DNA from: Myxococcales bacterium | Lineage (GTDB): Bacteria > Myxococcota_A > Polyangia > Nannocystales > Nannocystaceae | Assembly (NCBI GenBank): GCA_014240065.1 | Contig: JAAZXR010000050.1 | Span: 1 to 32,137, forward strand | DNA length: 32,137 bases | Direction of reading: 5' to 3' | Shown here: one piece after another, positions 2,511 to 28,400 of the stretch | Numbering within the stretch: position 1 is the stretch's first letter | How the letters are laid out: each line of letters starts with the position of its first letter | Notes under the pieces: model-generated | Databases searched by the model: none | What the model saw: the letters and a program-made list of their open reading frames with translations, nothing else | Told to the model about the DNA's origin: nothing | Position numbers and translations under genes: made by a program

Positions 2511-5471
2511 ATGAACGTTGTCGAGCCTCTGCTACCCTCGTTTATCCCGACGATGTCTCTCTCGACCACCTTCCTGCGACGCGCGCGACTCGAAGCAGAG
2601 CGATATGGCGCCGACCCCTGGGTGTTCGTCCGAGAGTTCACACAAAATGCCCGCGACGCCGCCGCGTCGTGCGTACAAATCGAGGTGGCGTCGACTCCGG
2701 ATGGGACGGCCCTCACGTTCCAAGACGACGGCGAGGGGATGAGCTGGATGCACGCGCAGCGCTACCTCTTCTCCCTGTACTCCTCGAGCAAGTCAGACGA
2801 CCTGCGGACAGTCGGAAAGTTCGGTGTTGGTTTTTGGTCTCACCTGCGGATCAAGCCCGCGGCGATTCATGTCCGTTCGCGACCGCGCCAGGGGCCAGGG
2901 TGGAGCATCTACATCGACAGCTCCCGTGAGACAGCGAGGCGCGGAGACTACGCCGGTCCTGTCGGCACCCAGATCGAGCTCCTGCTCAATCTCCCTGCCC
3001 CGGTCGTGCGTGAAGCCGTCGAAGACACCGCGCGCCAGTCCGTGCGCTACATTCGGACCCTCCGAGGGCACGCGCCGCTGCACGTAAAAATCCAAGGAGA
3101 GTCGATCAACGCCGCCTTCTCTCTCCCTTCCCCGAGCCGATCGTTCACAGACACATCTATCCGCGGTGTCGTGGCGCTCGGTCGCTCTCCGAGGGTCGAA
3201 CTATTCTCACGTGGCATCCGAGTACGGGCCGCAGGCTGCCTCAACGACCTGCTGCGCGACCATCCGAAGCTGAGCTACAGCCGCCTGCAGTTCTCCTCAC
3301 TCCCGGGAGGCCTCGCGCCCCAAGTGCTGCTCGAGGTGGACGATCTCGATCTTGACCTCTCTCGAGCGGACGTCAAGAACGCCGACACCGTCGCGCAGGC
3401 GGTGCGGTTGGCCCGACGACAGCTTGAGCGCCTCGTCGTGGAACAGCTCGACGCGCTCGCACCACCGAGCCTGCTTGAGCGTCTCCGAGGGTGGCTCGGT
3501 GATCTCCCCACGATGGGGGCGTCAAATCGGTGGCGAGTGGCCTCCGGTTTCATCGCTGTCGCCATCGGTCTTGGGGCCTTCGCGAGCTTCGTCCAGCGTC
3601 CTCAGCCTTTGCTCGCGCTCGCGACACAAGAGCGCGCGAGGCTCGCGACCTCTGCGCCCGCGGCGCCGGCCTCTGCCGCGTTCACCGAGCGCGCGCGTCC
3701 ACCCGCGCCCTACAAGGACCTTCGCTCCAGCTACACAGGCCCGGCCTCTCATCCCGCCGGACTGGCCGCGTCATATCAGCCCTTGAATCTCCGATATTCC
3801 CCGAAGGACCGCCGGCTCCATCTGGCGATGCTGCGCATCGTCGACGACCCCCTGGGGCTCGCGAACTTCCGACGCCCCGACCAGCCCTTGCCCGCGGTGG
3901 ACTGCGAGGGTGGATGCATCAAGATCGCCCTCCGAGTCGCGGCGAACAGGGGCTTCCTGCCGCTCCCCACGCCCACGGGTATGGGCGTCCTCCCCGAATC
4001 GATCCGCTTGAAGCAAGCGCCGTTGCGCGGACGCGTGCTGACGGACCGATCGTCGATGCCCATGGTGGAGCTTTCGGAGGCCGCGGACGGCATCATGACC
4101 TACGCGGTCGGGCGTCTCACCCCGAGGACGACCCCGGAGCCGGAGCCGTCTGTGACCAAGACCACCCTCCCGCCGCGCCTCAACGCCGCGGTGGAAGCGG
4201 CGCGCGCCCGGCCTCACGACGAGCGGGCGGCGCTGCTCCTCGATGAGGTTCGGGTGCTCGTGCGCTACGATCTCACACCCGAGGTCGCGTCCCGGCACCG
4301 CGCGCTCGAGGCCGCGGGCGTCGAACCGTTGACGCGGCTGCTGCGCGTCGGTGCAGGGGACTGCGACCTACAAAATGGGCTCCTCACAGTGCTCTTGCAG
4401 GCGACGAACGTGCCGGCGAGGATGGCGGTGGGGCACCTCACCCGCGACGGTCTCCCCCGCCCCTTCGTTCACGCGTGGGTCGAATGGCGAGATGAAGCGG
4501 GCGCGTGGCGCGTCGCCGACGCGTCTTCGACCGACGCGCCCGCGCTCTCGCAGTCACCACCTGGTCTGGAAGACGCCATCGCGTACACCAGCCCCCCCGC
4601 GCGGTTCCCCTCCCGGGCGTCGGCCGACGCCGTCGAAGAAGGTGTCCGGGCCGTCGCCCTCGCGCCCTCTCCTCCAGACGCGTCGGCGCCGCGAGCGCGC
4701 TCGTCACTCTCTGACCGCACATGGATCAGCCCGCCCTACCGCACACGAATCGGGGCCGGCATGTTGTTCTTGATTGTGATCGGGACCGCCATCGCGCTGT
4801 CACGCCGACGCAGACCGATCGACACAGACCCCCCCGAAGTTCTTGAGTTCATTCGAGGCCTCCTCTCGCGCCCCCAAATCCTCCACGACCTCCCCGTGCT
4901 GGCGACGCGCCCGTTGATCCGCACCCTCGGCGGTCGGAGAATCTCCATCGCGCGATGCCGGGCGCTCGCCACGTCGGGACGACTGTTCATCGCCGCGACG
5001 GAGGCCTCGCGCGCGGTGACCGGGTCACGCATGCGCGGCGACATCCTCGATGCGGGCCACGCGACCTCCCGGTTGGTGGCGACCATGATGGACGCGCAGG
5101 ACCTGGAGTGGTGGGCGCGAGCCATGAGAGACGGCCGGCGCTCGCCGCTCCTCCACAAGGTTGAGGCCCTGCTCAGGACGATAGCTCCGTGTGAAGTCGT
5201 GGCCGTGAGCGGTGTCCACGGCGTCCTCGTCGTCGATCGCAGCGCCCTCCAGACCTCCTCTTCTCCCAAGCTGAGCGTCGCCCTCGACGTCGAACACCCG
5301 GTCCACCAGCGCGCGCGCGCTCTGTACGACCGACACCCCTCCCTCGCGGCGACGATCCTCGTCGAAGCCGTCGCGCCGTCGCTACCCAGCGACCCGCGCG
5401 CCGTCCGCAAGCTCACCACGGCGTCGTCGAGAGGCGCCCTGCGCGAGCTTTTGGAGGAGGCGACGTCGTGA
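2511..5471 (+). CDS. Membrane-spanning GHKL (Hsp90-like) ATPase with inserted transglutaminase-type domain
   Basis: 986 residues, not a family I can name. Residues 1-340 look like an Hsp90-type ATPase: N-box EFTQNARDA (Glu42, Asn46), G1 box DDGEGM (72-77), G2 box GKFGVGFWS (102-110), then a middle-domain-like part with ELFSRG (230-235) and an LDLDLSR loop (about 279-285). TM1 is about 343-361. The next 380 residues include a transglutaminase-like core with Cys618 (GDCD), His654 (HAWVEW) and Asp670 (VADASS), a complete Cys-His-Asp triad. TM2 is about 747-765, followed by RRRRP. Charges place both ends in the cytoplasm and the transglutaminase core outside. The C-terminal 220 residues resemble the C-terminus of the next gene. 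Start is uncertain: TTG 2502, ATG 2511 and ATG 2553 are in frame and none has a good ribosome site. The stop overlaps the next start (GTGA). Confidence 0.8.
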   Translation: MNVVEPLLPSFIPTMSLSTTFLRRARLEAERYGADPWVFVREFTQNARDAAASCVQIEVASTPDGTALTFQDDGEGMSWMHAQRYLFSLYSSSKSDDLRTVGKFGVGFWSHLRIKPAAIHVRSRPRQGPGWSIYIDSSRETARRGDYAGPVGTQIELLLNLPAPVVREAVEDTARQSVRYIRTLRGHAPLHVKIQGESINAAFSLPSPSRSFTDTSIRGVVALGRSPRVELFSRGIRVRAAGCLNDLLRDHPKLSYSRLQFSSLPGGLAPQVLLEVDDLDLDLSRADVKNADTVAQAVRLARRQLERLVVEQLDALAPPSLLERLRGWLGDLPTMGASNRWRVASGFIAVAIGLGAFASFVQRPQPLLALATQERARLATSAPAAPASAAFTERARPPAPYKDLRSSYTGPASHPAGLAASYQPLNLRYSPKDRRLHLAMLRIVDDPLGLANFRRPDQPLPAVDCEGGCIKIALRVAANRGFLPLPTPTGMGVLPESIRLKQAPLRGRVLTDRSSMPMVELSEAADGIMTYAVGRLTPRTTPEPEPSVTKTTLPPRLNAAVEAARARPHDERAALLLDEVRVLVRYDLTPEVASRHRALEAAGVEPLTRLLRVGAGDCDLQNGLLTVLLQATNVPARMAVGHLTRDGLPRPFVHAWVEWRDEAGAWRVADASSTDAPALSQSPPGLEDAIAYTSPPARFPSRASADAVEEGVRAVALAPSPPDASAPRARSSLSDRTWISPPYRTRIGAGMLFLIVIGTAIALSRRRRPIDTDPPEVLEFIRGLLSRPQILHDLPVLATRPLIRTLGGRRISIARCRALATSGRLFIAATEASRAVTGSRMRGDILDAGHATSRLVATMMDAQDLEWWARAMRDGRRSPLLHKVEALLRTIAPCEVVAVSGVHGVLVVDRSALQTSSSPKLSVALDVEHPVHQRARALYDRHPSLAATILVEAVAPSLPSDPRAVRKLTTASSRGALRELLEEATS

Positions 5472-7132
5472 CCTCTGAGGAGCTTGGACTCGACGAGCTG
5501 CTGCGCATCGACGTGGACGCGCAGCTCCTCAAGCTCGCGACTTGCCAACTTGAGGACGATCTAGATCTCGTGATTGAGATCCTCCGCGCCGCCGTGTTCG
5601 CCGGGACGCGTGAAATACAGATCACCCAACGCAGAGGGACCCTGTCGATCACGACGAGCGCGTCGCTGTTGTCCCGCGAGACCTCTCACGCCCTTCAGGT
5701 CGCCGCAGACCCGCGCTCTGACGCGCATGAGCGGCAGCGAGGCATCGAGCTGGTAGAGCACAACGCCGGCGCGGGGTGGCTCGCGCTGCTCGGCCGCAAA
5801 GACCTCACCTCCCACGCGAGATGTTCCCCCGATGGCGCGCCTCCTGATCTGAGCCTCAACCTGCCGACGCACGCCGACGCGCGGGAGATGCCACGCCGGT
5901 CCAGTCTCCGGCGCTCCGGGAGCTTCCTCATCATTCGAGGCCTCAATATTCAGAGGCGATCGTTGCAGCAACGAATCGGTCGGAGGGTGAGTCGCTTCGG
6001 TCCCCGACTCGATGTGTTTGGTCTGGATCCACGCTCGCTCCAACAGGATAAATCCCATGACCCGGTCCACGCGACGCTCCAAATCAACGGGCTTGAACCT
6101 ACGTTGGAGGCGGCCTTTTCGCTGAGCAGGAGCGCGACCGTACGGCCTGCGCGCGTGTTTTTATCCCACGGAGGCTTTGTCCGCGGCGGGATCACGCTGG
6201 AGAACCTCCAGGGGTTCGAGTTGGTCTTGAACCTCGACCCCTTCGGCCCGACGCTCCCGGCCCTTGAGACACTTCGTCGGGGGATTCAAAACTCAACATT
6301 TGGGATCGAAGAGCGGCTCGCGCACGCGGTGACGCGCTGGGCGATCGGATGCTCGAACGGGCGCCTGTCGCGTCTCCGCGAGGTCGTCATCGCGGCGCTC
6401 GCACATCGCAGAGAGAGCCCCCTTCGGAGCGCCAAGGTGTTCGAGTATTTTGATTCCACGGGCCTCCACCGCGCGTCGTGGGACCAGCTCATCTCCTCGA
6501 CACGGGAAGATCCATTCACGTACATAGGACCGGAGTCTCGCGCGTGGCTCCGGCGCCAGACACGCCCCGCGTCAAGCGGTCGAGTATGGATCGCGGCGCC
6601 TGAAACTGCCGCGTTGCTCCGGGATGAATACGCGATCCAGGTCCGAGCGTTCCGAGGCGCGCGCCGCAGGAGCATCGCGAGAGACATCATCGGCGGCGTC
6701 GTTGAAGGCCTCGCGCGCGTCGCCGCCTTCGCCCGCGGTCGTCCGCTCCCTCGAGCGAAGCTGACTGCTCGCGAGGTGTCCGTGCTCGAACACCTCAACG
6801 CGTCGCTGGACCCTCAGCGCTCCAATGGGAGACAGATCGAGTTGAGCGGCCACCGAGGATCCCTCCGGTGCACGAGAGAACACTGGCTGTTGCCCCGGGT
6901 GGCCCCGGGGACCAGAGAATTAGTGGCGGCGGTCCATGCCCACCAAGACACCGCGCACCTGGCCATCCTCGCGCTCGGACACCCAGACGCGGTCCCCAGC
7001 GTCCAAGCGACCTCACGCTTCCATCAGCTGGTCTCGAGGCTGACTCACGAGCGCTCCCCTGACCCATCGCGAGGCCCATCATCGGGGCGCCTCCCACCAG
7101 CGGAGCGCTCCAAAGAGGAGGCGCTCTCGTGA
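5468..7132 (+). CDS. Degenerate Hsp90-like partner paralogue of the upstream ATPase
   Basis: 554-residue soluble protein with no family I can name. It aligns by eye with its upstream neighbour. A helix-strand region at 34-60 sits where the N-box should be but lacks the Asn. The G1 region has no DxGxG. NAGAGWLALLG (99-109) resembles a decayed G2 box. RVFLSHGGFVRGG (229-241) and FELVLNLD (250-257) match the neighbour's middle part. SSGRVWIAAPE (369-379) matches TSGRLFIAATE, and the EHWLLPR...AHLAILALGHP region (471-506) matches the neighbour's LSVALDVEHP region, with similar spacing (about 100 residues) between these last two motifs. It lacks the membrane and transglutaminase insert. GTG 5468 overlaps the previous stop by four bases and follows GGAGGAGG. 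Likely a non-ATP-binding partner in a complex; function is unknown. Confidence 0.75.
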   Translation: MTSEELGLDELLRIDVDAQLLKLATCQLEDDLDLVIEILRAAVFAGTREIQITQRRGTLSITTSASLLSRETSHALQVAADPRSDAHERQRGIELVEHNAGAGWLALLGRKDLTSHARCSPDGAPPDLSLNLPTHADAREMPRRSSLRRSGSFLIIRGLNIQRRSLQQRIGRRVSRFGPRLDVFGLDPRSLQQDKSHDPVHATLQINGLEPTLEAAFSLSRSATVRPARVFLSHGGFVRGGITLENLQGFELVLNLDPFGPTLPALETLRRGIQNSTFGIEERLAHAVTRWAIGCSNGRLSRLREVVIAALAHRRESPLRSAKVFEYFDSTGLHRASWDQLISSTREDPFTYIGPESRAWLRRQTRPASSGRVWIAAPETAALLRDEYAIQVRAFRGARRRSIARDIIGGVVEGLARVAAFARGRPLPRAKLTAREVSVLEHLNASLDPQRSNGRQIELSGHRGSLRCTREHWLLPRVAPGTRELVAAVHAHQDTAHLAILALGHPDAVPSVQATSRFHQLVSRLTHERSPDPSRGPSSGRLPPAERSKEEALS

Positions 7133-7911
7133 GACCACCGCGACAATCGCAGCTTCGCGACCGCTTCCTTCGGGAGGATCAAATCGTGATCGAAGGTCGA
7201 TTCGCCGTCTCGCGCGCGCTGGAGTCCGGCTACCAGCCTGAGCTCATCTTGACCACGAAGGAGACGCTGCATGCGCTCCCACCGACGCCATCAAAGACGG
7301 TCACGGAGATCCTGTCACGACTCGAGCTCTCGCAGATCTCCGGCTACGACTTTCACCGGGGATGCCTCGCGCTGGGTCAACGACCTCAACCAACCCGCTG
7401 TCTTGAATCGGCGCTCGATCGGCTCATCTCGAACACCGCTGAGTCATGGGAACGCACCGTCGTCTTGCTGGAGCGGATCGCCGACCCACAGAATCTTGGC
7501 GCCATCTTGCGCACCGCTCAGGCCCTCGGCGTACGCCAGGTGTTCTTGTCGAACGAATGCGCAGACCCTTGGTCGCGGCGGGTCATCCGAACCAGCATGG
7601 CCAACGTCTTCGCGTCGCCGCCGATCATCTCGGACGATCTCTTTAAGGTCGCAGATCACCTCGCCAAGGAGGCGAACGTCACGCTCGTCGCCGCCGCGCT
7701 CACAGAGCAGGCGCTACCTATCGACGCCTTCCGCCCTCCCGACACGCCGCTCGCGCTCATGCTCGGAAACGAGGGCGACGGGCTCTCGCGCGCGCTCCTT
7801 GATCGCGCCCACGTCACGGTCAAGATCCCTGTGCGGGACGTCTCTGACAGCCTCAACGTCGCCGTGGCCGCCGGCATCTTGATCGATCGGTTGCGGACGC
7901 GTCGAGGCTGA
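7129..7911 (+). CDS. SpoU/TrmH-family 2'-O-ribose RNA methyltransferase
   Basis: 260 residues, the usual length for an RlmB/TrmH-type enzyme, which transfers a methyl group from S-adenosylmethionine to a ribose 2'-hydroxyl in rRNA or tRNA. All three SPOUT knot motifs are present: DPQNLGAILRTAQALG (motif 1), LMLGNEGDGLS (motif 2) and IPVRDVSDSLNVAVAAGI (motif 3). An N-terminal substrate-binding part carries IEGRFAVSRALESG. The RNA target cannot be told from sequence. It starts at GTG 7129, overlapping the upstream stop by four bases (GTGA), with AGGAGG seven bases upstream, so it is probably translated together with the two Hsp90-like genes. It converges on queG with 11 bases between stops. 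Confidence 0.92.
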   Translation: MRPPRQSQLRDRFLREDQIVIEGRFAVSRALESGYQPELILTTKETLHALPPTPSKTVTEILSRLELSQISGYDFHRGCLALGQRPQPTRCLESALDRLISNTAESWERTVVLLERIADPQNLGAILRTAQALGVRQVFLSNECADPWSRRVIRTSMANVFASPPIISDDLFKVADHLAKEANVTLVAAALTEQALPIDAFRPPDTPLALMLGNEGDGLSRALLDRAHVTVKIPVRDVSDSLNVAVAAGILIDRLRTRRG

Positions 7912-7922
7912 GCGGCCTCACG

Positions 7923-9026
7923 TCACTCCGTCGGCTCGCGCTCACCGCGACGCGCGCGCGCGCGACGTGCCCACGCACGAAGCTCTGGATCGTCACCGTC
8001 CGCCACCGTCCCTAACACTCGCGTTTCTTCGGCGCTCAGCGGGCCTTCCACGTTACCGAGGGCGATTAAGGCGTTGCGTCGAAGCTCACGCCGTGGGATC
8101 CGGTTCAACGCGGAGTGCCTCACAAAACCTTTGTGCTGGTTGTTTCCGACGCCCGCGAGCGCCGCCAAGCTGAGCTCGCGATCCCGATCTCCAGGGACAG
8201 GCGGCAGCCGCTGGTGCGGCTCGGTCTTGCTCGGTAAGGATGGGCTCGCGTTGTGTGGGCACACCTCCTGGCAGACATCGCAACCCGCCACGCGAGCCCC
8301 CATCTGCATCGCGAGATCTTCGTCAATGACGCCTCGGTGCTCGATCGTCAGATAGGAGATGCACCTGCGCGCGTCGAGCGTCGCCGGTCCGACGAAGGCA
8401 TCCGTCGGGCAATCGTCGAGGCACGCCCGGCACGACCCGCACGCGTCCCACGGCGCCGCGGACGAGCCTGGGCTGCTCTCTTCGCGCGCTTTGTCGTCGC
8501 TGACGTCCAGCGTCGCGGTCGTCAAGATCGCGCCGATCACGACGTAGCTGCCGAGGCCGGGCACGATCAGACACCCATTTTTTCCTTGAAATCCGATCCC
8601 GGCGAGCATGGCGAGGGATCGCTCTGGTACGGGTTTTGTGTCCACACAAATCTTCGAGGTCACCTCGGGGAGCAGCTCGGAGAGCCGCGCCACCACCGTC
8701 TCCAACCGACGATGAACGATGGTGTGATAGTCGGCCCATTGGGCGTATCTCGCGACGGGTCCTCGCACTCCCCCATACGCCATCACGCCCACCAACGCGG
8801 TCTTGGCCCCCTCCAGCAGGAGCGCCGCGTCATCTCGCATGCCCTTCGTGGTCGTCAGAAATTGCATCTCGCCTTCGTGACCACGCGCGAGGAATGACTC
8901 GAACGCCTCCCTTGAACGCTCAAGCCGAGGATCGTCGAGGCGCGCTGGCGAGAATCTCAACAGACCCGACTCGCGCGCGACGGTCGACAGCGCTTCAAGA
9001 ATCGAGTCGGTGATCGAGTCGGACAC
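7923..9026 (-). CDS. queG: Epoxyqueuosine reductase
   Basis: Cobalamin-dependent iron-sulfur enzyme for the last step of queuosine synthesis, reducing epoxyqueuosine to queuosine in tRNA. Two [4Fe-4S] motifs are visible: CGSCRACLDDCP and, after it, CDVCQEVCP, with the family segments DTKPVPERSLAMLAGIGF and ARRCISYLTIEHRG. The C-terminus has the short helical repeat part (LRRNALIALGNV) seen in the family. I chose GTG at 9026 (367 residues) because GGAGAGG lies about seven bases upstream and the start is then next to the stop of the upstream Nudix gene. An ATG at 9068 would add 14 residues and overlap that gene by 41 bases. Confidence 0.95.
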   Translation of the reverse strand: MSDSITDSILEALSTVARESGLLRFSPARLDDPRLERSREAFESFLARGHEGEMQFLTTTKGMRDDAALLLEGAKTALVGVMAYGGVRGPVARYAQWADYHTIVHRRLETVVARLSELLPEVTSKICVDTKPVPERSLAMLAGIGFQGKNGCLIVPGLGSYVVIGAILTTATLDVSDDKAREESSPGSSAAPWDACGSCRACLDDCPTDAFVGPATLDARRCISYLTIEHRGVIDEDLAMQMGARVAGCDVCQEVCPHNASPSLPSKTEPHQRLPPVPGDRDRELSLAALAGVGNNQHKGFVRHSALNRIPRRELRRNALIALGNVEGPLSAEETRVLGTVADGDDPELRAWARRARARRGEREPTE

Positions 9027-9027
9027 G

Positions 9028-9651
9028 CTACACCTCTCCAACCAACGACGCGCGGACGAGGAGTTCATAGGTCATGCGCGCGGTCGCCCCCCACAGTGGG
9101 GGATCGTGGATATCGAACTCGTGGAGCCGATACTCGCGTCCCCTCCACCGACGAGTGTCGGCCACGCGATGGAGACTCGGATCGCACAGCTCGCTCAACG
9201 ATGGCGTGAGGATCTTCGCTACTTCAGCGCTGCAAGCAGATGGCTCCCACGTTGAGACGAGGCGCCCGACAAATGGCACGATGAAAAAACCGGTCGGAGT
9301 CGGCACCGGCTCGAGGCGCCCGAGGACCTGCACGCTCCCGCGGTCTAGCCCGATCTCTTCGTGGCTCTCGCGCAAGGCCGTGTCGAGCAGATCCCGGTCC
9401 TCAGGCTCACGCTTTCCTCCGGGGAAGGCCAGCTGTCCCGCGTGGGTGTTGAGGCCCTGCGCGCGCTGAATCAGCAGCAGGCGCTCCCCACGAGCGTCGA
9501 CCTCCGGCAGGATCAAGGCGAGCACCGCGGCGTGTTGGAACGACCCGGAATCGGGGAGCGGCGCTCCGACTAGATCGAGTCTCCTCCCAAGATCTTCAGG
9601 AAACGCGACCGGCTTCGTTCCTTCGCTTCGCAACGAGGGAGAGTGTCGCAC
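9028..9651 (-). CDS. Nudix hydrolase, CoA-pyrophosphatase type
   Basis: 207 residues. The Nudix signature is complete: FPGGKREPED then ALRESHEEIGLD, with the REx2EE catalytic core that binds magnesium. The preceding stretch LLIQRAQGLNTHAGQLAFPGG is the extra motif of the NudL/NUDT7 group, which cleaves coenzyme A and its derivatives to phosphopantetheine and adenosine 3',5'-bisphosphate. Start is GTG 9651; no ATG lies nearby. Its stop is one base from the chosen queG start, so the two are probably co-transcribed. It is divergent from the membrane-protein gene at 9740, leaving an 88-base shared promoter region. Confidence 0.88.
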   Translation of the reverse strand: MRHSPSLRSEGTKPVAFPEDLGRRLDLVGAPLPDSGSFQHAAVLALILPEVDARGERLLLIQRAQGLNTHAGQLAFPGGKREPEDRDLLDTALRESHEEIGLDRGSVQVLGRLEPVPTPTGFFIVPFVGRLVSTWEPSACSAEVAKILTPSLSELCDPSLHRVADTRRWRGREYRLHEFDIHDPPLWGATARMTYELLVRASLVGEV

Positions 9652-9739
9652 ACCGCGACTACCGCATGGTCGTGTCCCACCGGGCGTCGTTTTGAGTCAA
9701 CGCCATGCCCCGGCGGCGCCGACGTGCTAGTTTCTTCAC
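9652..9739. promoter_or_regulatory. Divergent intergenic region
   Basis: 88 bases between two divergent starts (Nudix on -, membrane protein on +). It must hold promoters for one or both sides, but I cannot pick convincing -35/-10 pairs by eye. Confidence 0.3.
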
Positions 9740-10351
9740 ATGCGGCGCGAACTACGCCCTCTCCCTCTCGTCGAGGCGACGCACAGCAACATCGACGCTG
9801 CGATCGGTGGGCTGTGGTCCGTGCCCCTCGTCCTCAGTTGCCTCGCGGCCACGTACGGACTTGGCCATCACGCCGGCAGCGCCCCTGTCCACGCGGCCGA
9901 GGTTCCGGGCGCCGACCTGCTCGGCCTCGGCGAGCTGCTCGAGCGCATCATCTCGCTGCTCAGCCGCGGCGGGGCGATCTTCGCGCTCATCGTGAGCGTC
10001 GGCTTCATCGCTACATGGGCGGTGTGCCATCTCCGGTCACCACGCGCGAACTCGACCGCGACCCCGCGGGTTTTGCCCTTCGTCGCGCTGTGTTGCAGCG
10101 CGGTGCCGGTCGCGCTGACACTCGTCGCCGTCGCCACCCGGTTCTTTCCCGGCGCCCTCCCTTTAACCCTGAAGATCTTTGGCGTCTCGGTGATCGCCGG
10201 CGCCGTCAGCTGGACGCTGAGCGTCCTGGCCATCTTCGTCGGTGGCGACCGCCAAGATTTACGTCGCGCCCGACGAGCCGTGCTGCTCTCCGGTGCGCCC
10301 TGGTACGCCCTGACGCTCTACCTCGCCTCGCTCATGGGCGCGTCCGTCTGA
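9740..10351 (+). CDS. Small integral membrane protein, unknown family
   Basis: 203 residues, starting at ATG 9740. I do not recognise the family. Hydrophobic segments appear at about 23-50, 76-95, 109-133, 140-167 and 180-202, suggesting four to five membrane helices. Loops are short and there are no motifs pointing to a substrate. It is the only plus-strand gene between 7.9 and 32 kb. Its 3' end overlaps the convergent lipoprotein gene by 34 bases. Confidence 0.65.
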   Translation: MRRELRPLPLVEATHSNIDAAIGGLWSVPLVLSCLAATYGLGHHAGSAPVHAAEVPGADLLGLGELLERIISLLSRGGAIFALIVSVGFIATWAVCHLRSPRANSTATPRVLPFVALCCSAVPVALTLVAVATRFFPGALPLTLKIFGVSVIAGAVSWTLSVLAIFVGGDRQDLRRARRAVLLSGAPWYALTLYLASLMGASV

Positions 10352-10764
10352 GGGGCTGACTCCTCAGCGGCCGTGGTCGGCGAGCCCAGCTGCGAGGACA
10401 TCGCGAGCGCCCGCGGCTCCGCAGGATCCAGCGCGAGGGCCCGCGCCAACGCCAGGTCACCCGATTCGACGTCACCGATGGCGTAGGACGCTTCGGCGCA
10501 CGAAACCCAGAGCAGGGCCTCATCGGGATCGAGGGCCGCCGCGCGACGGAAGTGAAGTTGGGCCTCCGCGGGACGGGCGGGCAGCGCCTCCATCGCGAGC
10601 AGCCCCCGCAGGTACGCCTCGTATGCCGCCGACGGCGCGTTGGGTGTGCGCACCAGGGCCCCGTCGACAACGTGAAGGTCGCGGGCCGCTCGCGGAGACG
10701 CGCAGCCCGCCGTGACCGTCATGACCACCATCAGCGCCCCTCTCCACGATCGGCCGAGGCTCAC
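10318..10764 (-). CDS. TPR-like lipoprotein
   Basis: 148 residues. Residues 1-20 are a lipoprotein signal with lipobox TAGC (Cys21). The mature part has about two and a half TPR-like helical repeats ([20 protein letters not shown] and [19 protein letters not shown]), so it is probably a small protein-binding lipoprotein. Start GTG 10764 overlaps the stop of the upstream carboxylase gene (GTGA), which argues for co-translation, though no functional link to the carboxylase is evident. Its 3' end overlaps the convergent membrane-protein gene. Confidence 0.75.
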
Positions 10765-12374
10765 AGGGGGATGTTCCCGTGTTTCTTCTTGGGGTTGACC
10801 TGCCGTTTGTTCCGCAACAGCCGCAAGGACCTGCTGATCTCACGACGCGTCTCCTCGGGCTCGATGACGCGATCGATGAAGCCCTGCTCTGCCGCCTTGT
10901 ACGGGCTCGCGAACAGCTCCCTGTACTCTTGGGTCAGCTTCGCGCGCAGGGCGTCAGGATCGTCGGCCGCCATGATCTCTCTTCGGTAGATAATGTTGAC
11001 GGCTCCATCTGCGCCCATCACCGCGATCTCTGCGGTCGGATACGCGAGGTTGATGTCTCCGCGGATATGCTTGCTCGCCATGACGTCGTAGGCCCCTCCA
11101 TAAGCCTTGCGCGTCACCAAGGTGATCTTCGGGACGGTCGCCTCCGTAAACGCGTAGAGGAGCTTCGCCCCGTGTCGAATAATGCCGCCGTGTTCTTGAT
11201 CTGTTCCGGGCAAGAAGCCGGGGACATCAACCAGCGTCAACAGCGGGACGTTAAACGCGTCACACATCCGCACGAACCGGGCGGCCTTCACCGACGCGTC
11301 GATGTCCAAGCAGCCGGCCAGGACGAGCGGCTGGTTGGCGACGACGCCGACAGGCGCCCCATCGACTCGGATGAAGCCGATCACCATATTCTTCGCGAAG
11401 TGCTCTTGGACCTCCAAGAAGCGCTCATCGTCCGCGACCCCCTTCACGATCTCTCGGATGTCGTAGGGCTTCGACGGATCGAGCGGCACCAGCCCCCGAA
11501 GCCCCTCACAGTCGCGGTCGCCGGGATCGGTCGTGGCCTGGCGCGGAGGATCCTCCATATTGTTCGAGGGGAGGTAGGCCAGCAGCTCGCGCGTCATGGC
11601 CATCGCCGCGGCCTCGTCTGGGCACGCGAAGTGTGCCACGCCGCTCTTTCCGTTGTGTGCCATCGCGCCGCCGAGCGCCTCTTTCGTGACCTCCTCGTGC
11701 GTCACCGTCTTGATGACGTCTGGCCCGGTGATGAACATGTAGCTCGTTTCTTGAACCATCAACGTGATGTCGGTGATGGCCGGTGAATACACGGCGCCCC
11801 CGGCGCACGGACCCAGGACCACCGAGAGCTGCGGCACGACACCAGAGGCGAGCACGTTGCGCTTAAAGATCTCGGCGTAGCCAGCGAGGCTCGCGACCCC
11901 CTCCTGGATCCGCGCACCTCCCGAGTCATTAAGACCGATCACGGGAGCACCAACCTCCATCGCCTTGTCCATGATCTTGCAAATTTTCATGGCGTGCGCC
12001 CAGCCCAGGCTCCCGCCGAAGACGGTCGGCCGCTGCGCGAACACAAACACCGGCCGTCCATGAACTAAGCCGTGGCCTGTGACGACCCCGTCCCCATAGG
12101 GTTGTTTGTCGAGCATCCCGAAGTCCGCGCATGGGCTCGTCACGAACTGATCGAACTCCGTGAACGATCCCGGGTCGAGCAGCGCGTGAATGCGTTCGTG
12201 CGCTGTGGCCCGGCCGGTCGCCTCCACGCGCTCCGCCGACGCCTTCGACTTCGCCCGGATGGCGTCGAGCGTGGTCGCATCGGCGTCGAAGGCCCGCGGT
12301 CCCGCCCCCATCTCTCCGAGCGCTACGCGCCGCGCCAATTCTTCTCGTGGGTTCTTGGTCGATTTGTCGGCCAT
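10761..12374 (-). CDS. Biotin-dependent acyl-CoA carboxylase, carboxyltransferase subunit (propionyl-CoA type)
   Basis: Carboxyltransferase subunit that moves CO2 from carboxybiotin to acyl-CoA, most likely propionyl-CoA to (S)-methylmalonyl-CoA. From ATG 12374 it is 537 residues, a normal PccB length. Both crotonase-like halves are present: the first has GGARIQEGV and [15 protein letters not shown], the second has [27 protein letters not shown] and [15 protein letters not shown]. The ending KKKHGNIPL is typical of the family. A GTG at 12401 would add nine residues but has no better ribosome site. No biotin carboxylase or biotin carrier gene is in the window, so the partner must be elsewhere. 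It lies 82 bases downstream of hisB on the same strand. Confidence 0.93.
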
Positions 12375-13596: not shown

Positions 13597-13624
13597 ATCA
13601 CCGCCCACATCACCGCCCACATCA
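13597..13624. repeat. Short tandem repeat between dnaK and J-domain genes
   Basis: Two perfect copies of the 12-mer ATCACCGCCCAC (13597-13608, 13609-13620) and the start of a third that runs into the dnaK stop codon. It lies in the 38-base gap. Probably a slippage product; no function is evident. Confidence 0.6.
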
Positions 13625-15265
13625 CCGCCGCACGACGCTGCCCTCATGACCATCTTCACCGAGTAGACCCTCCGACTCTGCCTTTGAGATCATCGCGTCC
13701 ACGTCCTCGGGGCTCATACCGCCGAGCACCTTCATCGTCGCGGTCTGCTCTTGGCCCGTCTGGCTGTCGAGCGCGCGCACCTCGAGGAGGCCGTCGGTGT
13801 TGATCTCAAACGTCACCGAGACAGAGATCTCTCCCCGCCGCGCGGGCCGAATCCCCGAGAGCAAGACTTCACCGAGCTTGGTGTTGTCATCGAAGGATGG
13901 AGACTCCCCTTGGCACACCTCAATCCGCACATACTTTTGATTGTCTACCGTGGTCGTAAACAGGCGCGTCTGCTCCACCGGCACCACCGAATTCCGCTCG
14001 ATGATGCGATCCACGTGACCGCCCAACGTCCGGACCCCCAAGCTCCGCGGGGTGACATCAAGCAAGACCGCGGTCGCGTTCATACTCGGCGCAGACACCC
14101 CCCCATCGGCCATCGGCACCAACAGGCCGACGAGCGCCGCCCCTTGAATGGCCGCGCCGACCGCCACCACCGACATGGGGTTGATCGACGTCTGCGGCGG
14201 TCGATTGAAGACCGCCCGCACCGTCTCTCGCACGATGGGAATTCGCGTCGTGCCCCCAACGAGCACGATCTCGTCAATCTGCTCGGCTCGAATCCCCGCG
14301 ATCTTCATGGCCTCCTCGCACACCGGGATGGTCCGGTTCACGATAGGACCGATCAGGTCGCGCAGCGACGTCTCCGTGAGGGAGAAGTTGAGGCTCTTCC
14401 CCTGATCGGGCAGCACCCCTTCGATAAACCGAGAGACCTGGGCGGTCTCGCTGAGCTCGATCTTCAGCTCCTCGGCGACGGAGCGCAGCCGCGCCCGAGC
14501 CACCGGGTGTTCCCGCAGGTCGATCCCGTGCTCCTCGTTGAATTGCTCGATCATGGCCCCCAAGATTGCCTCGTCGAGGTCGTCTCCCCCGAGAAACATC
14601 TCGCCAGAGGTGGCGAGCACCTCAAACACATTCTGGGTGATCTCGAGGATCGTGACGTCGAAGGTGCCTCCGCCGAAGTCGTAGACGGCGATGCGACGAT
14701 CCATGTCCTCGATATAGCCGTAGGCGAGCGCCGCCGCCGTCGGCTCGTTGATGATGCGGATGACCTCAAGTCCCGCGAGCCGCGCCGAAATTCGCGTCGC
14801 GCTGCGCTGCGAATCCGTAAAATTGGCGGGCACGGAGATCACACACTTTCGAATCCGCTGGCCAAGCGCCTCCTCCGCCATCTTCCGCAGATACTTCAGC
14901 ACGTAGGACGAGACCTCGACGGCGCTGAGCTTCCGGCTGCCAAAGCCCACCATCACGGACTCATTGCGCCCCTCAAAGATCTTGTAGGGGACCGTCTCGA
15001 TCATCTTCGTGACTTCGGGCGAGGAGAAACGACGACCGATCAGGCGCTTCGCGCTGTAGATCGCGTTCACAGGATCTAGAATTCGCTCCCGTTTCGCCTC
15101 CAAGCCGACCGCCATGGAGCCGTCCGCCCGGGCGGCGATCATGGACGGGATGATCCGATCCTCGCCCCGACGTACCACGCTAGCGCTCCCCTCCTGAACG
15201 ACTGCACAGGCCGAGTTCGTGGTCCCCAGATCGATACCCAGCACGAATTGATGATCTTGTGCCAT
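13622..15265 (-). CDS. Short Hsp70/DnaK-family chaperone without a full lid
   Basis: 547 residues from ATG 15265, which has GGAG five bases upstream; the longer reading from 15304 has no support. The nucleotide-binding domain is complete: GIDLGTTNSACAVV (phosphate 1), NEPTAAALAYG, VYDFGGGTFDVTI (phosphate 2) and VGGTTRIPIVRE (adenosine). The interdomain linker region reads TAVLLDVTPRSLG, and the beta-sandwich substrate domain follows (ARRGEISVSVTFEINTDG). Canonical DnaK is about 640 residues; here the chain stops about 30 residues after the beta domain, so most of the helical lid is missing. It may be a specialised Hsp70 with its own J protein downstream; the client is unknown. Confidence 0.92.
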   Translation of the reverse strand: MAQDHQFVLGIDLGTTNSACAVVQEGSASVVRRGEDRIIPSMIAARADGSMAVGLEAKRERILDPVNAIYSAKRLIGRRFSSPEVTKMIETVPYKIFEGRNESVMVGFGSRKLSAVEVSSYVLKYLRKMAEEALGQRIRKCVISVPANFTDSQRSATRISARLAGLEVIRIINEPTAAALAYGYIEDMDRRIAVYDFGGGTFDVTILEITQNVFEVLATSGEMFLGGDDLDEAILGAMIEQFNEEHGIDLREHPVARARLRSVAEELKIELSETAQVSRFIEGVLPDQGKSLNFSLTETSLRDLIGPIVNRTIPVCEEAMKIAGIRAEQIDEIVLVGGTTRIPIVRETVRAVFNRPPQTSINPMSVVAVGAAIQGAALVGLLVPMADGGVSAPSMNATAVLLDVTPRSLGVRTLGGHVDRIIERNSVVPVEQTRLFTTTVDNQKYVRIEVCQGESPSFDDNTKLGEVLLSGIRPARRGEISVSVTFEINTDGLLEVRALDSQTGQEQTATMKVLGGMSPEDVDAMISKAESEGLLGEDGHEGSVVRR

Positions 15266-15285
15266 CGTCACTCCAGGGTACCCCC

Positions 15286-15300
15286 TATCGCGATTATCGC
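15286..15300 (-). promoter_or_regulatory. Candidate -10 element inside a palindrome upstream of dnaK
   Basis: On the minus strand GATAAT (near consensus for a sigma-70 -10) lies inside the perfect 11-base palindrome GCGATAATCGC (15290-15300), about 25 bases before the dnaK start. An operator over the promoter is plausible. No clear -35 element or heat-shock CIRCE repeat is seen. Confidence 0.35.
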
Positions 15301-15402
15301 CCAATGAAGGCCTGAAACCGGCCCGACCTGCGTGCTCCCGGTGCGGCCGCTGCTAGGGGCGCCGCCGTGACAGACGCTCTGACGGGCGGTCCACCACCCG
15401 GG

Positions 15403-23916: not shown

Positions 23917-25473
23917 TCACGGTTGCTGACCTCCCGATGGCTGCTGCGGCGCTGGCTGCTGCGGCGCTGGCTGCTGCGGCGCTGGAGCCTGCGGCGCTGG
24001 CTGCTGTGGCGCTGGACCCTGCGGCGCTGGACCCTGCGGCGCTGGTTGCTGCGGCGCTGGTTGCTGCGGCGCTGGACCTTGCGGCGTCGGATCTTGCGGC
24101 GTCGGATCTTGCGGCGCTGGTTGCTGCGGCGCTGGACCTTGCGGCGTCGGATCTTGCGGCGCTGGACCTTGCGGCGTCGGATCTTGCGGCGTCGGATCTT
24201 GCGGCGTCGGCGTCTCGCCTCCATCGACCGACGGCTCGTCCGGCGCCATTTCTTGCGCCCCTGAATCTTCGGGGACGAGCGCGGCCGCCTCCGCCGCCTC
24301 CTGGGCCTCCTTCGCCTCTCGCTCCTTGCGCTTCACACCGCGTTTTTTCCGCCGCTCCTCGCGCTCGAGGTTTTTCTTGGCGACCCCGATATACAGATCC
24401 GCCTGCTCAACAGAGACGAACTCGCGCCCCGGCCCGGTCTCGAGGGCGACGGTCCACGTGTCCACCCCTCCCTTCGCCGCGGGCGCGCGGGTGAGGACCA
24501 CCTCCTTGTACCGAGTGAACGCTTGTACCGCGAGGTTCAGCCGCTCGGTGGCTTCGATATTCGGGAAGGGATCGGCGTCGAGGTACAACACCCCGAGATT
24601 GAAATGGGCGTCGGCGCTCTGCGGATCGAGCTTCAAAATCTCGCTGAATGTTTGTCGCGCCTCTACGATCTGGCCGAGCGCTCGCTGCGCCGCGCCGAGG
24701 TTCAAACGCGCGCGCCGAAACTTCGGCTGGAGCTCCACCGCGTACTGAAAACACCCAATGGCGGTCCCGTAGTCGCCCTTGACCATAAATTGCACGCCCA
24801 GGTTGTTCCACGCCGCCGCGTTTTGCTCGTCGCCCTCCGCCGCTTGCCTGAACATGTTCAGCGCCGCCGTCGAATTCGCCTCCGCGAGGTAGGCGAAACC
24901 CCGGAGATTGAACGCTTGCGAGGCCTCCTCTGGCGTGAGCACCTTCGGGTCAATTTGCAGCGCGAGCCCCCCGACGGACTGCGCGATCTCATACTTCCCC
25001 TGCTTATAAAACGCCTCCGAGATGACGAGCATCGCCTCCACATTTTGCTCGTGAATCTTGAGCGCTTGCCGCGCCTCCCGGATCGCCCGATCGAGGTTAC
25101 CGAGCTTGAGCTGGGCCATCGCCTTCGAGCTTCGATCTCGTGACAGAGACATCTTCCGCTTCTCCTCCTCCGGATCGCGGTCGCGAGAGACCGGGATCTC
25201 GATGGGCTTCACCGGCGTCAACTGCTCCTCTTCGGCGGAGTCCTCTGTGTCCGCCTTCGCCACCTCCACGGGCGCCGCTTGCGTCGTCGCTTGCTCCGAC
25301 ATACGCGGCGCGCGGGTGCTCTCGAGTTGGACCTTTCGACGCTCTTTCGCCTGCTCTTGGAGTCCCGCCGGTGCCTCGGTCTGTACCGCGGGCTCTTCGA
25401 CGGCACACCCGCCTCCGGTCGTCACCGTGAACGCGGCGGCGAAGAGCGCGCGACGAAGTGCCTCGCCCCTCAT
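23917..25473 (-). CDS. GltE/AglT-like TPR lipoprotein with Pro-Gln repeat tail
   Basis: 518 residues. A signal ending TTGGGC suggests a lipid-anchored Cys23. After an acidic linker, residues about 115-320 hold TPR helices (AMAQLKLGNLDRAIREARQAL, LVISEAFYKQGKYEIA, AAWNNLGVQFMVKGDYGTAI, SADAHFNLGVLYLD). A charged helix (EREERRKKRGVKRKEREAKE) and a disordered tail of 18 five-residue repeats, PAPQQ/PTPQD/PAPQG, end the protein. TPR lipoprotein plus its place after the GltD-like gene matches GltE/AglT, an outer-membrane part of the Myxococcus machine. The ATG overlaps the upstream stop (ATGA), so translation is coupled. Confidence 0.82.
   Translation of the reverse strand: MRGEALRRALFAAAFTVTTGGGCAVEEPAVQTEAPAGLQEQAKERRKVQLESTRAPRMSEQATTQAAPVEVAKADTEDSAEEEQLTPVKPIEIPVSRDRDPEEEKRKMSLSRDRSSKAMAQLKLGNLDRAIREARQALKIHEQNVEAMLVISEAFYKQGKYEIAQSVGGLALQIDPKVLTPEEASQAFNLRGFAYLAEANSTAALNMFRQAAEGDEQNAAAWNNLGVQFMVKGDYGTAIGCFQYAVELQPKFRRARLNLGAAQRALGQIVEARQTFSEILKLDPQSADAHFNLGVLYLDADPFPNIEATERLNLAVQAFTRYKEVVLTRAPAAKGGVDTWTVALETGPGREFVSVEQADLYIGVAKKNLEREERRKKRGVKRKEREAKEAQEAAEAAALVPEDSGAQEMAPDEPSVDGGETPTPQDPTPQDPTPQGPAPQDPTPQGPAPQQPAPQDPTPQDPTPQGPAPQQPAPQQPAPQGPAPQGPAPQQPAPQAPAPQQPAPQQPAPQQPSGGQQP
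23941..24210. repeat. 18 tandem 15-bp repeats in the GltE-like gene
   Basis: 270 bases of in-frame 15-base units (plus-strand form CTGCTGCGGCGCTGG and variants). Each codes one PAPQQ, PTPQD or PAPQG unit. Copy number should vary by slippage without breaking the frame. The repeats create long spurious open frames in other phases. Confidence 0.95.
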
Positions 25474-28400
25474 CGGAGGTCCTCCAGCTGCAGCACGAGC
25501 GCGGCGTCTCGAAGGAGCGGGAACTCCTCGGGTTTGTACTTATTCAGGCGCTCACGGGCTCTCCGCGTCCAAATCGTATTGACCTTAAACTCGGCCGAGC
25601 GACGAATTAATGCCTCGTAGAGCAAGATGGACTTGTCTTCAAATCGTTGGGCTTCGCTCGCGACGATGTCCTTGTAGGCGAACCACGGCTCGCTGAACTC
25701 TTTGAGTTGCTTCGGTACTGGCGCCGTCCGAATTTTCTCTGCCACATCTTCGAACGCGAAGCCGCGGCGATACATCCCCGCCAACGTCCAATCTAGTCGC
25801 CGAAACGGGAACACCTTGTCGTAGGCTTGGGAGGCGGCGAGGACACGATCGAAGAGGCTCTTCACCGACTTCTCCATCTTCTTTCCGGTACCTGAGATCT
25901 TCACCTTCAACACATCCTTGAGGGTGCGCTCGGCCAGCAGGAACTGAGCCTGCGCCGGGAACTCCGCCGCCTCGGAGGCGGGCTCAAGCCCCCGCCGGTT
26001 GAATTCTCCAACGCACGCGCGGTAGGCCTTGTCCGCGTCCTTGCGACGCCCCATTTCCTCGTAGGCGAGCCCGATCTGAAGCTGCGCCTCCACCGCCCGA
26101 GGGCCCTCCGTCGCGTCGTTGCCGTGCTTCGCCAGGTAACGCTTGTACGCATTGACCGTCGCCCGATGCGCGCCCCGTTTGCCGGTCACCACAGCGGCGC
26201 GAAACAACCCTTCCGCCCGTTCATTCGGATCCTCGGATTTCTCGGACCACTTGCGGAACAATTCAGCCGCGCGCTCGTAGTCTTGCAGGTTCTCCATCAA
26301 CGCGGCGGCGTTCTTCAGCGCGATGAGTCGATGCTCGCTCGTGGCGTAGCGCTCGTCCTCCGCGAGGACCAGGTACTTCGTCACCGCCTGCTCGTACTCA
26401 AAGAAACGCGCGTGGTTGAACCCCGTACGCAGCAGCGCATCGTCGGCGAACTCGCTGTCTGGATAGTCGGTGTAAATCCGCTCGTAGGTGCGCGTGGCCG
26501 AGCCAAAGCGCCCGACCTCCTCGTACGCCACGGCGGCGTTGTTGAGCGCGCGGTCCGCCTGGGAGTCGTCGGGCGCCTCGTCGACGAGCGCGACGTAGCG
26601 GTCCGCCGCGGCCTCGAACGCCCCCGCCTCGAACAGCACCTGCGCCTCTTGAAAACGCACAGCGTTCCCGATGGTGCGCAGCTCGCCGGCGAATCTCGCT
26701 CGCTCCTCATCCGACCCGCAGTTGCGAGAAGCCAGCTCTTCGGTCCACGTGCGCGTGCCCTCAAGATCACCGCGTACGACGTGGGCGTCGATGATCGCGT
26801 AGCCCGCGTTGATCGCGATATTCTGGCTGCAATGGTTGTCCAAAATCGCGACGTAGCGCGCCTCCGAATCGTTGAAGCGGATGTAGCGCTGGCTCAGTGA
26901 GGCGGCCTCGTAGCGGAACTGCGCGGTCGATTTGCTGTCCGGGAAAATCCCGATGAAGTCGTCGTACGCGCGCTGAAGCGCCGCCACCACAGGAGGCAAC
27001 TTCTGCGGCTTAAGCTCGGGTCCTTGCCCCTCCATCCCGTCCTTCGGCATCTCGGGCAACTCCAATTCGCCGCCGTCGACGGCCTCTTGCATCGCCGCGT
27101 CGAACGCGAAAATGACGCCCTCGGCCGCGTCTCGCTGCAGGCGGTTGTCGATGTTCGAATCGCGAACCTCCGCGTAGTTTTGGGCGGCGAGGTCATACTG
27201 ATCGCTGTAGTACAGGCTGTCCGCGTACTGGAATCGATACTCGTACGAGCTCTCGGTGTTCGGGAAGCGCTCTAGATAGGCTTGATACGCCTTTCCAGCG
27301 ACCAGATACTCTCGCTTCGCGCCCGCGAAATCGCCCTCGGAGCGATACGCTTGCGCCTTCTCGTGATGCTCGACCGCCGTCGCGACGAGCGCGTCCTCGG
27401 CGAGCTCAAAGCCCCGCGCGATGGCGTCGGGGTCGCTCTCGTTGGCATAAAACCACTCCGAGCCGCGCAGGTATTGGGTCGCGAGCTTGTCGCGCGCAGC
27501 GGCGGCCGCGTCGCGCTCGGTCAGCAAGGCGTACGCCTGCATAATCCGCAGCTGCACATCGGGGGCGGTTCGCGTCGTCGGCCAGCGGCGGAGCGTCTCC
27601 TCCCAGATCTCGATGGCCTCTACAAAATCGGTCTGATAGGCGTACAAGCCCCCGAGCGCCGCGTAGATTTCGGGGACGTGGACCTCTTTCGCGCGGGCCT
27701 TGTAGTCGCGATCGAGGCGCGCCAGACCCCGCACCGGATCGAAGCGGCCGTCGCCATCCCAATCCTCCTCCACGTACGACTTCGCGATGTACTTCACCGC
27801 GTCATCACGCAGCTCGGCGGTGCCGAGCCCTTCCTCTGTCCCCTTCACCTTGTCGGCGTAGCGCACGAACTCGTCGAGCCGCGTCACCGCGCCTGCGAAG
27901 TCGCGGCGCAGATACAAGGTCCACGCCATACGAATGAGCGCCTCGTCATAAAAGTCATTGCGCTCGTCGCTCGCGGCCTGCTGATAGGCGGCCAGCGCCT
28001 GATCGAGCTCGTCCATGTCGTAGTGGAGCTCTCCGATGCGCAGCCACGCCTCGTTCACGTACCTCCCGTCGGGCTTGGACGGCCTGCACCCGTCGTCGTA
28101 ACTCTGGGGCATCACCTTATAAGACGGGATGACGTTGCTGCTGTCCTCCTCCGGGGCGTCGAAGCGGTTGCTGCACCCGAGGGCGAGGAACGACTGCCTC
28201 GCGCCGTCGAAGTCGCCTTGCTCGAGCAGCAAGAAGCCCATCATGTACAGCGCGGCGTCGATATTGGCGTAGTCGGGGAAGCCCACCGACGCCCTGCGGA
28301 ACATCGCGATCGCCTCCGAAAAGTCTGCCTCCGGCGCCGCGGGCGCCTCTTTGACCTTTTCGCCCGCGTCTTCACGTTCGCGATACGCGGCGAGCTCTTT

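Follow-up and report, generated by a model that had tools for sequence, protein, structure and literature searches.

What might two overlapping genes build together when both resemble Hsp90, only one of them keeps an ATP site and the genome already holds an ordinary HtpG? The genes, here A and B, follow each other on the forward strand of a 32,137-nucleotide stretch of DNA from a Myxococcales bacterium of the family Nannocystaceae (GenBank assembly GCA_014240065.1, contig JAAZXR010000050.1); the window means this whole stretch. An original prediction saw in them Hsp90-like paralogues, one catalytic and membrane-bound and the other decayed and soluble, that form a heteromeric machine; its observations are partly confirmed here and its interpretation is partly supported. 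We find that A and B are very probably paralogues sharing an Hsp90-type chain, which in A is split by a transmembrane (TM) hairpin carrying a TgpA-like transglutaminase and which in B has lost its ATP site. The parts are known, but the combination is undescribed.

Hsp90-type ATPase parts of gene A

Gene A opens with a GHKL ATPase domain, recognized by Pfam HATPase_c_3 (amino acids (aa) 37–113, 39 bits, cut-off 25), and a sequence-profile search with this domain found Hsp90s as its relatives, with HtpG as the top match (E 6e-10). The N-box, DxGxG box and G2 box are all present, and their residues are invariant or nearly so among relatives (Table 1; counts refer only to alignment rows covering the given column). 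Two named models stay below their cut-offs: the NCBIfam sacsin N-domain NF047352 (47.6 bits with the A N-domain, cut-off 50) and the mutL equivalog model (24.8 bits with A, far under its cut-off of 180). In the first part of the middle domain, the LDLSRAD motif pairs with the LPLNVSRE loop of HtpG (HtpG 327–357); the local alignment alone is non-significant (E 0.26), and place and order fit.

An AlphaFold2 model of A (predicted local distance difference test (pLDDT) 70, predicted template modelling score (pTM) 0.42) matches full-length TRAP1 (7exp) over residues 17–978 (Z 16.5, 413 residues), at a fit of 11.4 Å that makes the orientation of its domains relative to TRAP1 unreliable. Structural matches to full-length Hsp90s reach residue 978–984. 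Fragments of TRAP1 comprising its N-terminal and middle (N–M) domains align with A 11–865, by which the insertion falls within the middle domain, near TRAP1 ~443–456. The N-terminal, middle and C-terminal (N–M–C) Hsp90 chain is thus not contiguous in A but broken at aa ~341–764. The Pfam HSP90 model PF00183 has no match in A at E ≤ 1, and a genome-wide search with it found only HtpG, on contig C165. A profile comparison of HtpG with the C-terminal part of A, in which the HtpG side was a single sequence, was not significant.

A membrane hairpin with a transglutaminase

The hairpin that separates the Hsp90 parts of A (aa ~341–764) and the transglutaminase domain within it had been overlooked in the original prediction. 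Pfam identifies Transglut_core at aa 571–671 (30.2 bits, cut-off 23), and aa 402–678 match the TgpA periplasmic domain (6g4h; VIA Z 16.7, 249 residues, root mean square deviation 3.7 Å). Of 51 A proteins, 50 have one hydrophobic segment before and another after the transglutaminase, and Lys and Arg are more abundant on the Hsp90 sides of these segments (means 2.98 and 4.18 versus 1.52 and 1.78). From these flanking helices and the Lys/Arg bias, we predict that the transglutaminase lies in the periplasm and that the Hsp90 halves both lie in the cytoplasm. There are normally just the two flanking TM segments, and Pfam found no match in A to the multi-TM N-terminal region DUF3488. The description of A as catalytic and membrane-bound is in part borne out, by its TM segments (aa 343–361 and 745–763) and the retained residues of its ATP site. 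A TgpA-like transglutaminase within the middle domain changes the likely function of the protein.

Sensor histidine kinases also have a periplasmic domain between two TM segments that is coupled to a cytoplasmic GHKL domain, a layout that A shares in the 50 of 51 proteins with flanking TM segments. On this ground A could act from the outside in: its TgpA-like domain would bind or process an envelope ligand and thereby control the cytoplasmic ATPase and its clients, with B as an adaptor. We consider this unlikely, as the Cys-His-Asp triad is invariant in all 52 sequences, more than a domain that only senses would require, and Pfam detects no His-phosphotransfer domain in A (HisKA or other phosphoacceptor domain, E ≤ 1). 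For the opposite direction, from a cytoplasmic clamp to the periplasmic enzyme, we rate the chances as even.

Gene B is an ATP-dead look-alike of Hsp90

B has no Pfam and no NCBIfam match, and no TM segment was found in the window's copy. Its AlphaFold2 model (mean pLDDT 74) has an N–M–C Hsp90 fold: it matches TRAP1 (Foldseek E 4e-12) and full-length Hsp90s (VIA Z 12–13, 338–430 residues, spanning B 1–506), followed in rank by the ATPase regions of GyrB and topoisomerase IV. The GHKL/S5 fold on which the original prediction hinged is therefore present in the model. By profile, HtpG (again a single sequence) gave no significant match to B, and the weak matches of the B profile elsewhere (36–174), which were expected to be HtpG, proved to be MutL in most of the cases inspected.

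In the profile alignment, five ATP-site residues of the window's A are replaced in B (Asn46 to Ala41, Asp49 to Phe44, Asp72 to Thr63, Gly74 to Ala65 and Gly76 to Leu67). Across 52 B sequences, neither the N-box Asn (0/52), nor its Asp (0/52), nor GxxGxG (0/52) occurs, while the N-box Glu is kept in 33. Within DDG, the second Asp is found in 33 and the Gly in 47 of the 52 sequences; both are lost in the window's B. The predicted loss of the N-box Asn and of DxGxG thus holds for this protein, but most relatives still have the 'DG' of DxGxG. As a soluble protein without an ATP site, B is as had been proposed, and the residue pattern over the 52 sequences marks it as a conserved pseudo-ATPase rather than a pseudogene. 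A functionless, decaying duplicate of A would also have lost its ATP site and would evolve faster, as B does; however, B is an intact open reading frame (ORF) of 383–597 aa that adjoins A in 51 of 51 loci and in at least four phyla, and it has near-invariant positions such as D15 and E97. Decay can hardly be credited as an explanation of this conserved pseudo-ATPase.

A and B share one chain

Compared directly by BLASTP, A and B show no significant similarity (E ≥ 0.4; TSGRLFIAATE/SSGRVWIAAPE at E 0.91), and profiles were therefore needed to relate them. First profile–profile alignments joined A 35–310 to B 30–290 with 97.2% probability. With 51 pairs plus the window, the N-terminal parts aligned at 97.7% and the C-terminal parts at 91.7% (E 8e-7). 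When aa 341–764 were removed from A, the remainder aligned with B over 433 columns (98.9%, E 1.4e-17), whereas the control alignments, of the transglutaminase part with B and of the C-terminal part of A with the N-terminal part of B, were null. The insertion is therefore the main difference between the two proteins. Profiles, models and residue counts thus uphold the view of Hsp90-like paralogues, one with and one without an intact ATP site.

The motif pairs from which that view was first drawn are weak evidence and would not carry the paralogy on their own. Of four pairs said to share order and spacing, the G2-like box (102–110 in A, 99–109 in B) and the middle-domain motif (228–239 and 229–241) are in register, but the other two are shifted. 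In the profile alignment TSGRLFIAATE (821–831) corresponds to B ~348–358, not 369–379, and LSVALDVEHP to B ~473–482; the 'GHP' at B 504–506 does not correspond. Spacing between the second and third motifs differs by ~430 residues because of the transglutaminase insertion in A.

The gene pair is linked across phyla

A single-protein scan of genome contigs with A returned no relatives, but a scan with an alignment, over 84,980 species genomes, yielded 61 loci. These lie in Nannocystaceae (Nannocystis, Plesiocystis, Enhygromyxa and Paraliomyxa), other Myxococcota, Acidobacteriota (Vicinamibacteria, Thermoanaerobaculales and Holophagae), Candidatus Fermentibacteria and Candidatus Eisenbacteria. 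In each of the 51 loci where no contig end cuts A, the next gene downstream on that strand is a B homologue, so the pair is conserved together, as the original prediction required. Among 59 related genomes, full-length A relatives occur in most of the window's family and in a second family, and each significant B match accompanying an A orthologue sits immediately downstream of it. A and B taken together, the window's family has matches to either or both in 27 of its 29 genomes; the two without (G011 and G019) belong to one small-genome genus. In a spread sample of the phylum, B was present at E ≤ 1e-20 in 4 of 189 genomes. The pair is thus nearly universal in Nannocystaceae and patchy elsewhere. 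The pairwise distances among A proteins track those among B proteins (r = 0.954), a correlation equalled in 0 of 2000 permutations. In Nannocystis pusilla Na p29 (G028; L067/L175), A and B are both split across frames, probably by sequencing errors.

This distribution bears on whether the pair might serve in phage defence or conflict, as a GHKL module of sacsin-like or paraMORC type. The A N-domain does match PADLOC TmtA models (E 3e-13), besides the sub-threshold sacsin N-domain match given above, but these matches are confined to the generic ATPase domain. The presence of the pair in 27 of 29 family genomes and its co-inheritance are unlike patchy defence islands, and no recurring nuclease or restriction–modification genes were seen beside it among the neighbours listed. 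We set the defence reading aside as very unlikely, as PADLOC matches only the generic GHKL domain.

A proposed A–B machine

The likeliest mechanism, in our proposal, is an Hsp90-like machine embedded in the membrane, with A and B as its two subunits. The A chain would pass from a cytoplasmic N-domain and first middle lobe through TM1 to the periplasmic transglutaminase and return through TM2 to the rest of the middle domain and the C-terminal domain, and B would be this Hsp90 chain lacking both hairpin and ATP site. The two would dimerize through their Hsp90-type domains, and ATP binding and hydrolysis in A alone would close and open an asymmetric cytoplasmic clamp. This cycle may switch or drive the transglutaminase in the periplasm, whose substrate would lie in the envelope and whose putative output would be protein cross-linking, deamidation or amide cleavage. 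The middle domain of Hsp90 moves on clamp closure, and because both TM helices arise from this moving domain, the enzyme could be gated or driven by the ATP cycle. That A and B form a heteromer is probable. For an asymmetric A:B clamp whose ATP cycle gates the transglutaminase, sequence and models leave the balance level. The full picture would be a new class of transmembrane Hsp90 machine: an obligate ATPase–pseudo-ATPase heterodimer that draws on ATP in the cytoplasm to power or gate a transglutaminase across the membrane, as one branch of a wider family of active/dead Hsp90-like pairs. It is tentative, and we lean slightly against it.

Several points weigh against the model. The structure predicted for A has a pTM of 0.42 and a first middle-domain lobe (aa 203–288) of low confidence, for which reason the exact insertion point is only approximate. 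B has no significant sequence match to Hsp90, the closest solved sequences being MutL (E ~0.02), and its Hsp90 likeness rests on its model and its homology to A. Shared vertical inheritance would also yield the correlation of distances between A and B, and linkage may reflect co-function without a complex.

Canonical Hsp90s are homodimers, and B proteins have diverged more than A proteins (mean identity 26% versus 32%). Both points would suit a homodimeric Hsp90-type ATPase made of A, with B as a separate client or a co-chaperone-like adaptor that inhibits or loads it. However, B retains all three Hsp90 regions and always adjoins A, as a matching half-clamp would, and we find this arrangement improbable.

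An A:B clamp of the kind proposed would be a departure, since every Hsp90 known to us is a soluble or lumenal homodimer. An Hsp90 with a transmembrane enzyme in its middle domain and a dedicated ATP-dead partner would, if it exists, allow one to probe the work done by clamp motion, a question that becomes askable through the covalent link between the clamp and the enzyme it drives. In Nannocystaceae and other large-genome bacteria, the pair would also be a candidate for ATP-powered control of envelope cross-linking. Hypotheses of function would follow for unnamed pairs in this family, among others those of Nannocystis exedens, Plesiocystis pacifica and Enhygromyxa salina, and for those in Acidobacteriota.

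Relation to known systems

Our literature search found no description of an Hsp90/GHKL–transglutaminase chain or of the A/B pair; its coverage was incomplete, which makes this absence weak evidence. With the Hsp90 family (HtpG, TRAP1 and GRP94), A shares the GHKL N-domain with a full ATP site, the catalytic Arg loop and the N–M–C order, and B shares the fold along its whole length. By ordinary searches, the sequence similarity is limited to the N-domain. Unlike members of that family, A has a TM/transglutaminase insertion of ~425 residues in its middle domain, B is ATP-dead and the genes form an obligate pair.

The insertion resembles TgpA (DUF3488–Transglut_core; Pseudomonas aeruginosa PA2873, PDB 6g49/6g4h) in its membrane-anchored periplasmic β-domain, transglutaminase core and Cys-His-Asp triad. 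TgpA is usually encoded beside MoxR, an AAA+ chaperone, and DUF58. It is therefore likewise linked to a chaperone-type ATPase, and MoxR–DUF58–TgpA would be a functional parallel to the proposed control of the A enzyme from inside the cell. In A, the insertion has only two TM helices and no DUF3488 match, and the transglutaminase is built into the Hsp90 chain; TgpA, by contrast, has a gene of its own next to that of the AAA+ MoxR. The transglutaminase activity of TgpA has been demonstrated and the PA2872–2875 gene cluster described (PMC3507681). The window's genome holds an ordinary HtpG (contig C165) and, on contig C173, a series of ORFs consistent with MoxR, DUF58 and TgpA, of which MoxR and DUF58 were named from sequence appearance and order, with no profile. 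With ordinary versions of both at hand, A/B is an addition and not a copy of the housekeeping HtpG or TgpA.

Sacsin (SACS), the closest named GHKL N-domain model to A, contains Hsp90-like modules with debated ATPase competence but, unlike A/B, is one giant cytosolic chain without TM segments or a transglutaminase. Asymmetric GHKL–S5 partners are known from MutL-alpha (MLH1/PMS2) and other GHKL heterodimers, which provide a precedent; in MutL-alpha, unlike A/B, both subunits bind ATP and there is no membrane part or enzyme insertion.

Soluble pairs of active and dead GHKL proteins

The B profile also finds a second type of pair in related genomes, read at eleven loci (L088–L098). Here a GHKL ATPase ORF of ~540–620 aa without a transglutaminase match (A') is followed directly by a B-like protein (B') of ~1000–1600 aa, which has a pseudo-ATPase start with LVQAAV or a similar N-box replacing QNxxD; at L090, for example, the two lie at 4966–6606 and 6585–11126. 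The order is that of A/B, an active GHKL ATPase and then a degenerate-GHKL protein, but with a longer partner. The eleven loci were picked for closely spaced A-type and B-type matches and therefore show that such pairs exist, not how frequent they are. Gene pairs that join an active to a dead GHKL protein thus seem to be a design that these bacteria use repeatedly.

Lone A'-type genes exist as well (L076, L104, L105 and L107). The one in the window's genome (G000:C33; L076:5119–6882) encodes a GHKL protein of 587 aa, and no B' was detected beside it in the 11 kb examined. B-like pseudo-GHKL domains with no A-type neighbour in the stretch examined were seen at L099, L100 and L101 (G032, G049 and G078); the ORF at L101 also holds a DUF3592 domain.

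Locus layout and neighbouring genes

The coordinates of the two ORFs and the GTGA overlaps at 5468–5471 and 7129–7132 are borne out by ORF calls, and A, B and an RNA methyltransferase gene form a run of three forward-strand genes joined by these overlaps (Table 1). The original prediction had attached the methyltransferase to the machine. This is not supported: the gene follows B in roughly ten Nannocystaceae loci, usually ~70–620 bp away and mostly without overlap, and among the loci listed it was not seen beside the pair outside these Nannocystaceae. As a neighbour in only some Nannocystaceae, it is rejected as a part of the system. No neighbour recurring across phyla as A and B do was seen among the loci listed.

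Table 1 Features of the A/B locus, with positions in the window
Feature	Position	Strand	Remarks
Gene A	2511–5471	+	986 aa; Hsp90-type ATPase split by TM–transglutaminase–TM insertion; ORF, Pfam, structure, 61 relatives
A, Hsp90-like N-terminal GHKL ATPase domain (aa 18–200)	2562–3110	+	VIA Z ~15.4, 157–162 residues, versus GRP94/HtpG/Hsp90 N-domains
A, N-box E42..QN46..D49	2634–2657	+	Glu42 and Asn46 48/48, Asp49 48/49
A, DxGxG box D72–G76	2724–2738	+	D72, G74 and G76 invariant, 48/48
A, G2 box GKFGVGF (aa 102–108)	2814–2834	+	G102, G105, G107 and F108 invariant, 50/50
A, first part of Hsp90 middle domain, S5-like (aa 201–340)	3111–3530	+	Alignments of A 11–865 with TRAP1 86–550
A, Arg285 in LDLSRAD	3363–3365	+	Equivalent of Hsp90 middle-domain catalytic Arg; invariant, 52/52
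A, TM1 (aa 343–361)	3537–3593	+	Hydropathy
A, predicted periplasmic TgpA-like β-domain and transglutaminase (aa 402–678)	3714–4544	+	Structure match, Pfam
A, transglutaminase triad Cys618 / His654 / Asp670	4362–4364 / 4470–4472 / 4518–4520	+	All invariant, 52/52
A, TM2 (aa 745–763), then RRRR (inside-positive)	4743–4799	+	TM prediction
A, rest of middle domain and C-terminal domain (aa 765–986)	4803–5468	+	Homologous to B 291–554; hhalign 91.7%, E 8e-7
GTGA stop/start overlap of A and B	5468–5471	+	Exactly 4 bp in 33/51 loci
Gene B	5468–7132	+	554 aa; soluble pseudo-Hsp90 with N, M and C regions, no ATP site
B, degenerate N-box EILRAAVFAG	5576–5605	+	Glu kept, Asn and Asp lost
B, degenerate DxGxG (TSASL)	5654–5668	+	A/B alignment; 52 B sequences
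SpoU/RlmB-type RNA methyltransferase	7129–7911	+	Pfam 116 bits; 4-bp overlap with B; not a core part

Directly upstream of A on the same strand, the window encodes a peptidase S46 (19–2427; DPP7/DPP11 type, 651 bits) whose C-terminal tail resembles a MYXO-CTERM sorting signal. Other genes stand upstream of A elsewhere: a lipoprotein-like secreted ORF of 533–585 aa directly upstream in several Nannocystaceae genomes, at L050, L062, L063 and L065 (G003, G007, G022 and G013), an AarF-like kinase ORF (G051/G043) and an ABC-F-like ATPase ORF (three deltaproteobacterial metagenome-assembled genomes). Beyond the methyltransferase gene by ~5.7 kb, an Hsp70 protein of 560 aa, shorter than the usual DnaK, is encoded on the reverse strand (13622–15304; 530 bits). 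Also on that strand, three overlapping genes in a row (23917–31468) encode TPR-repeat proteins of 518, 1199 and 800 aa.

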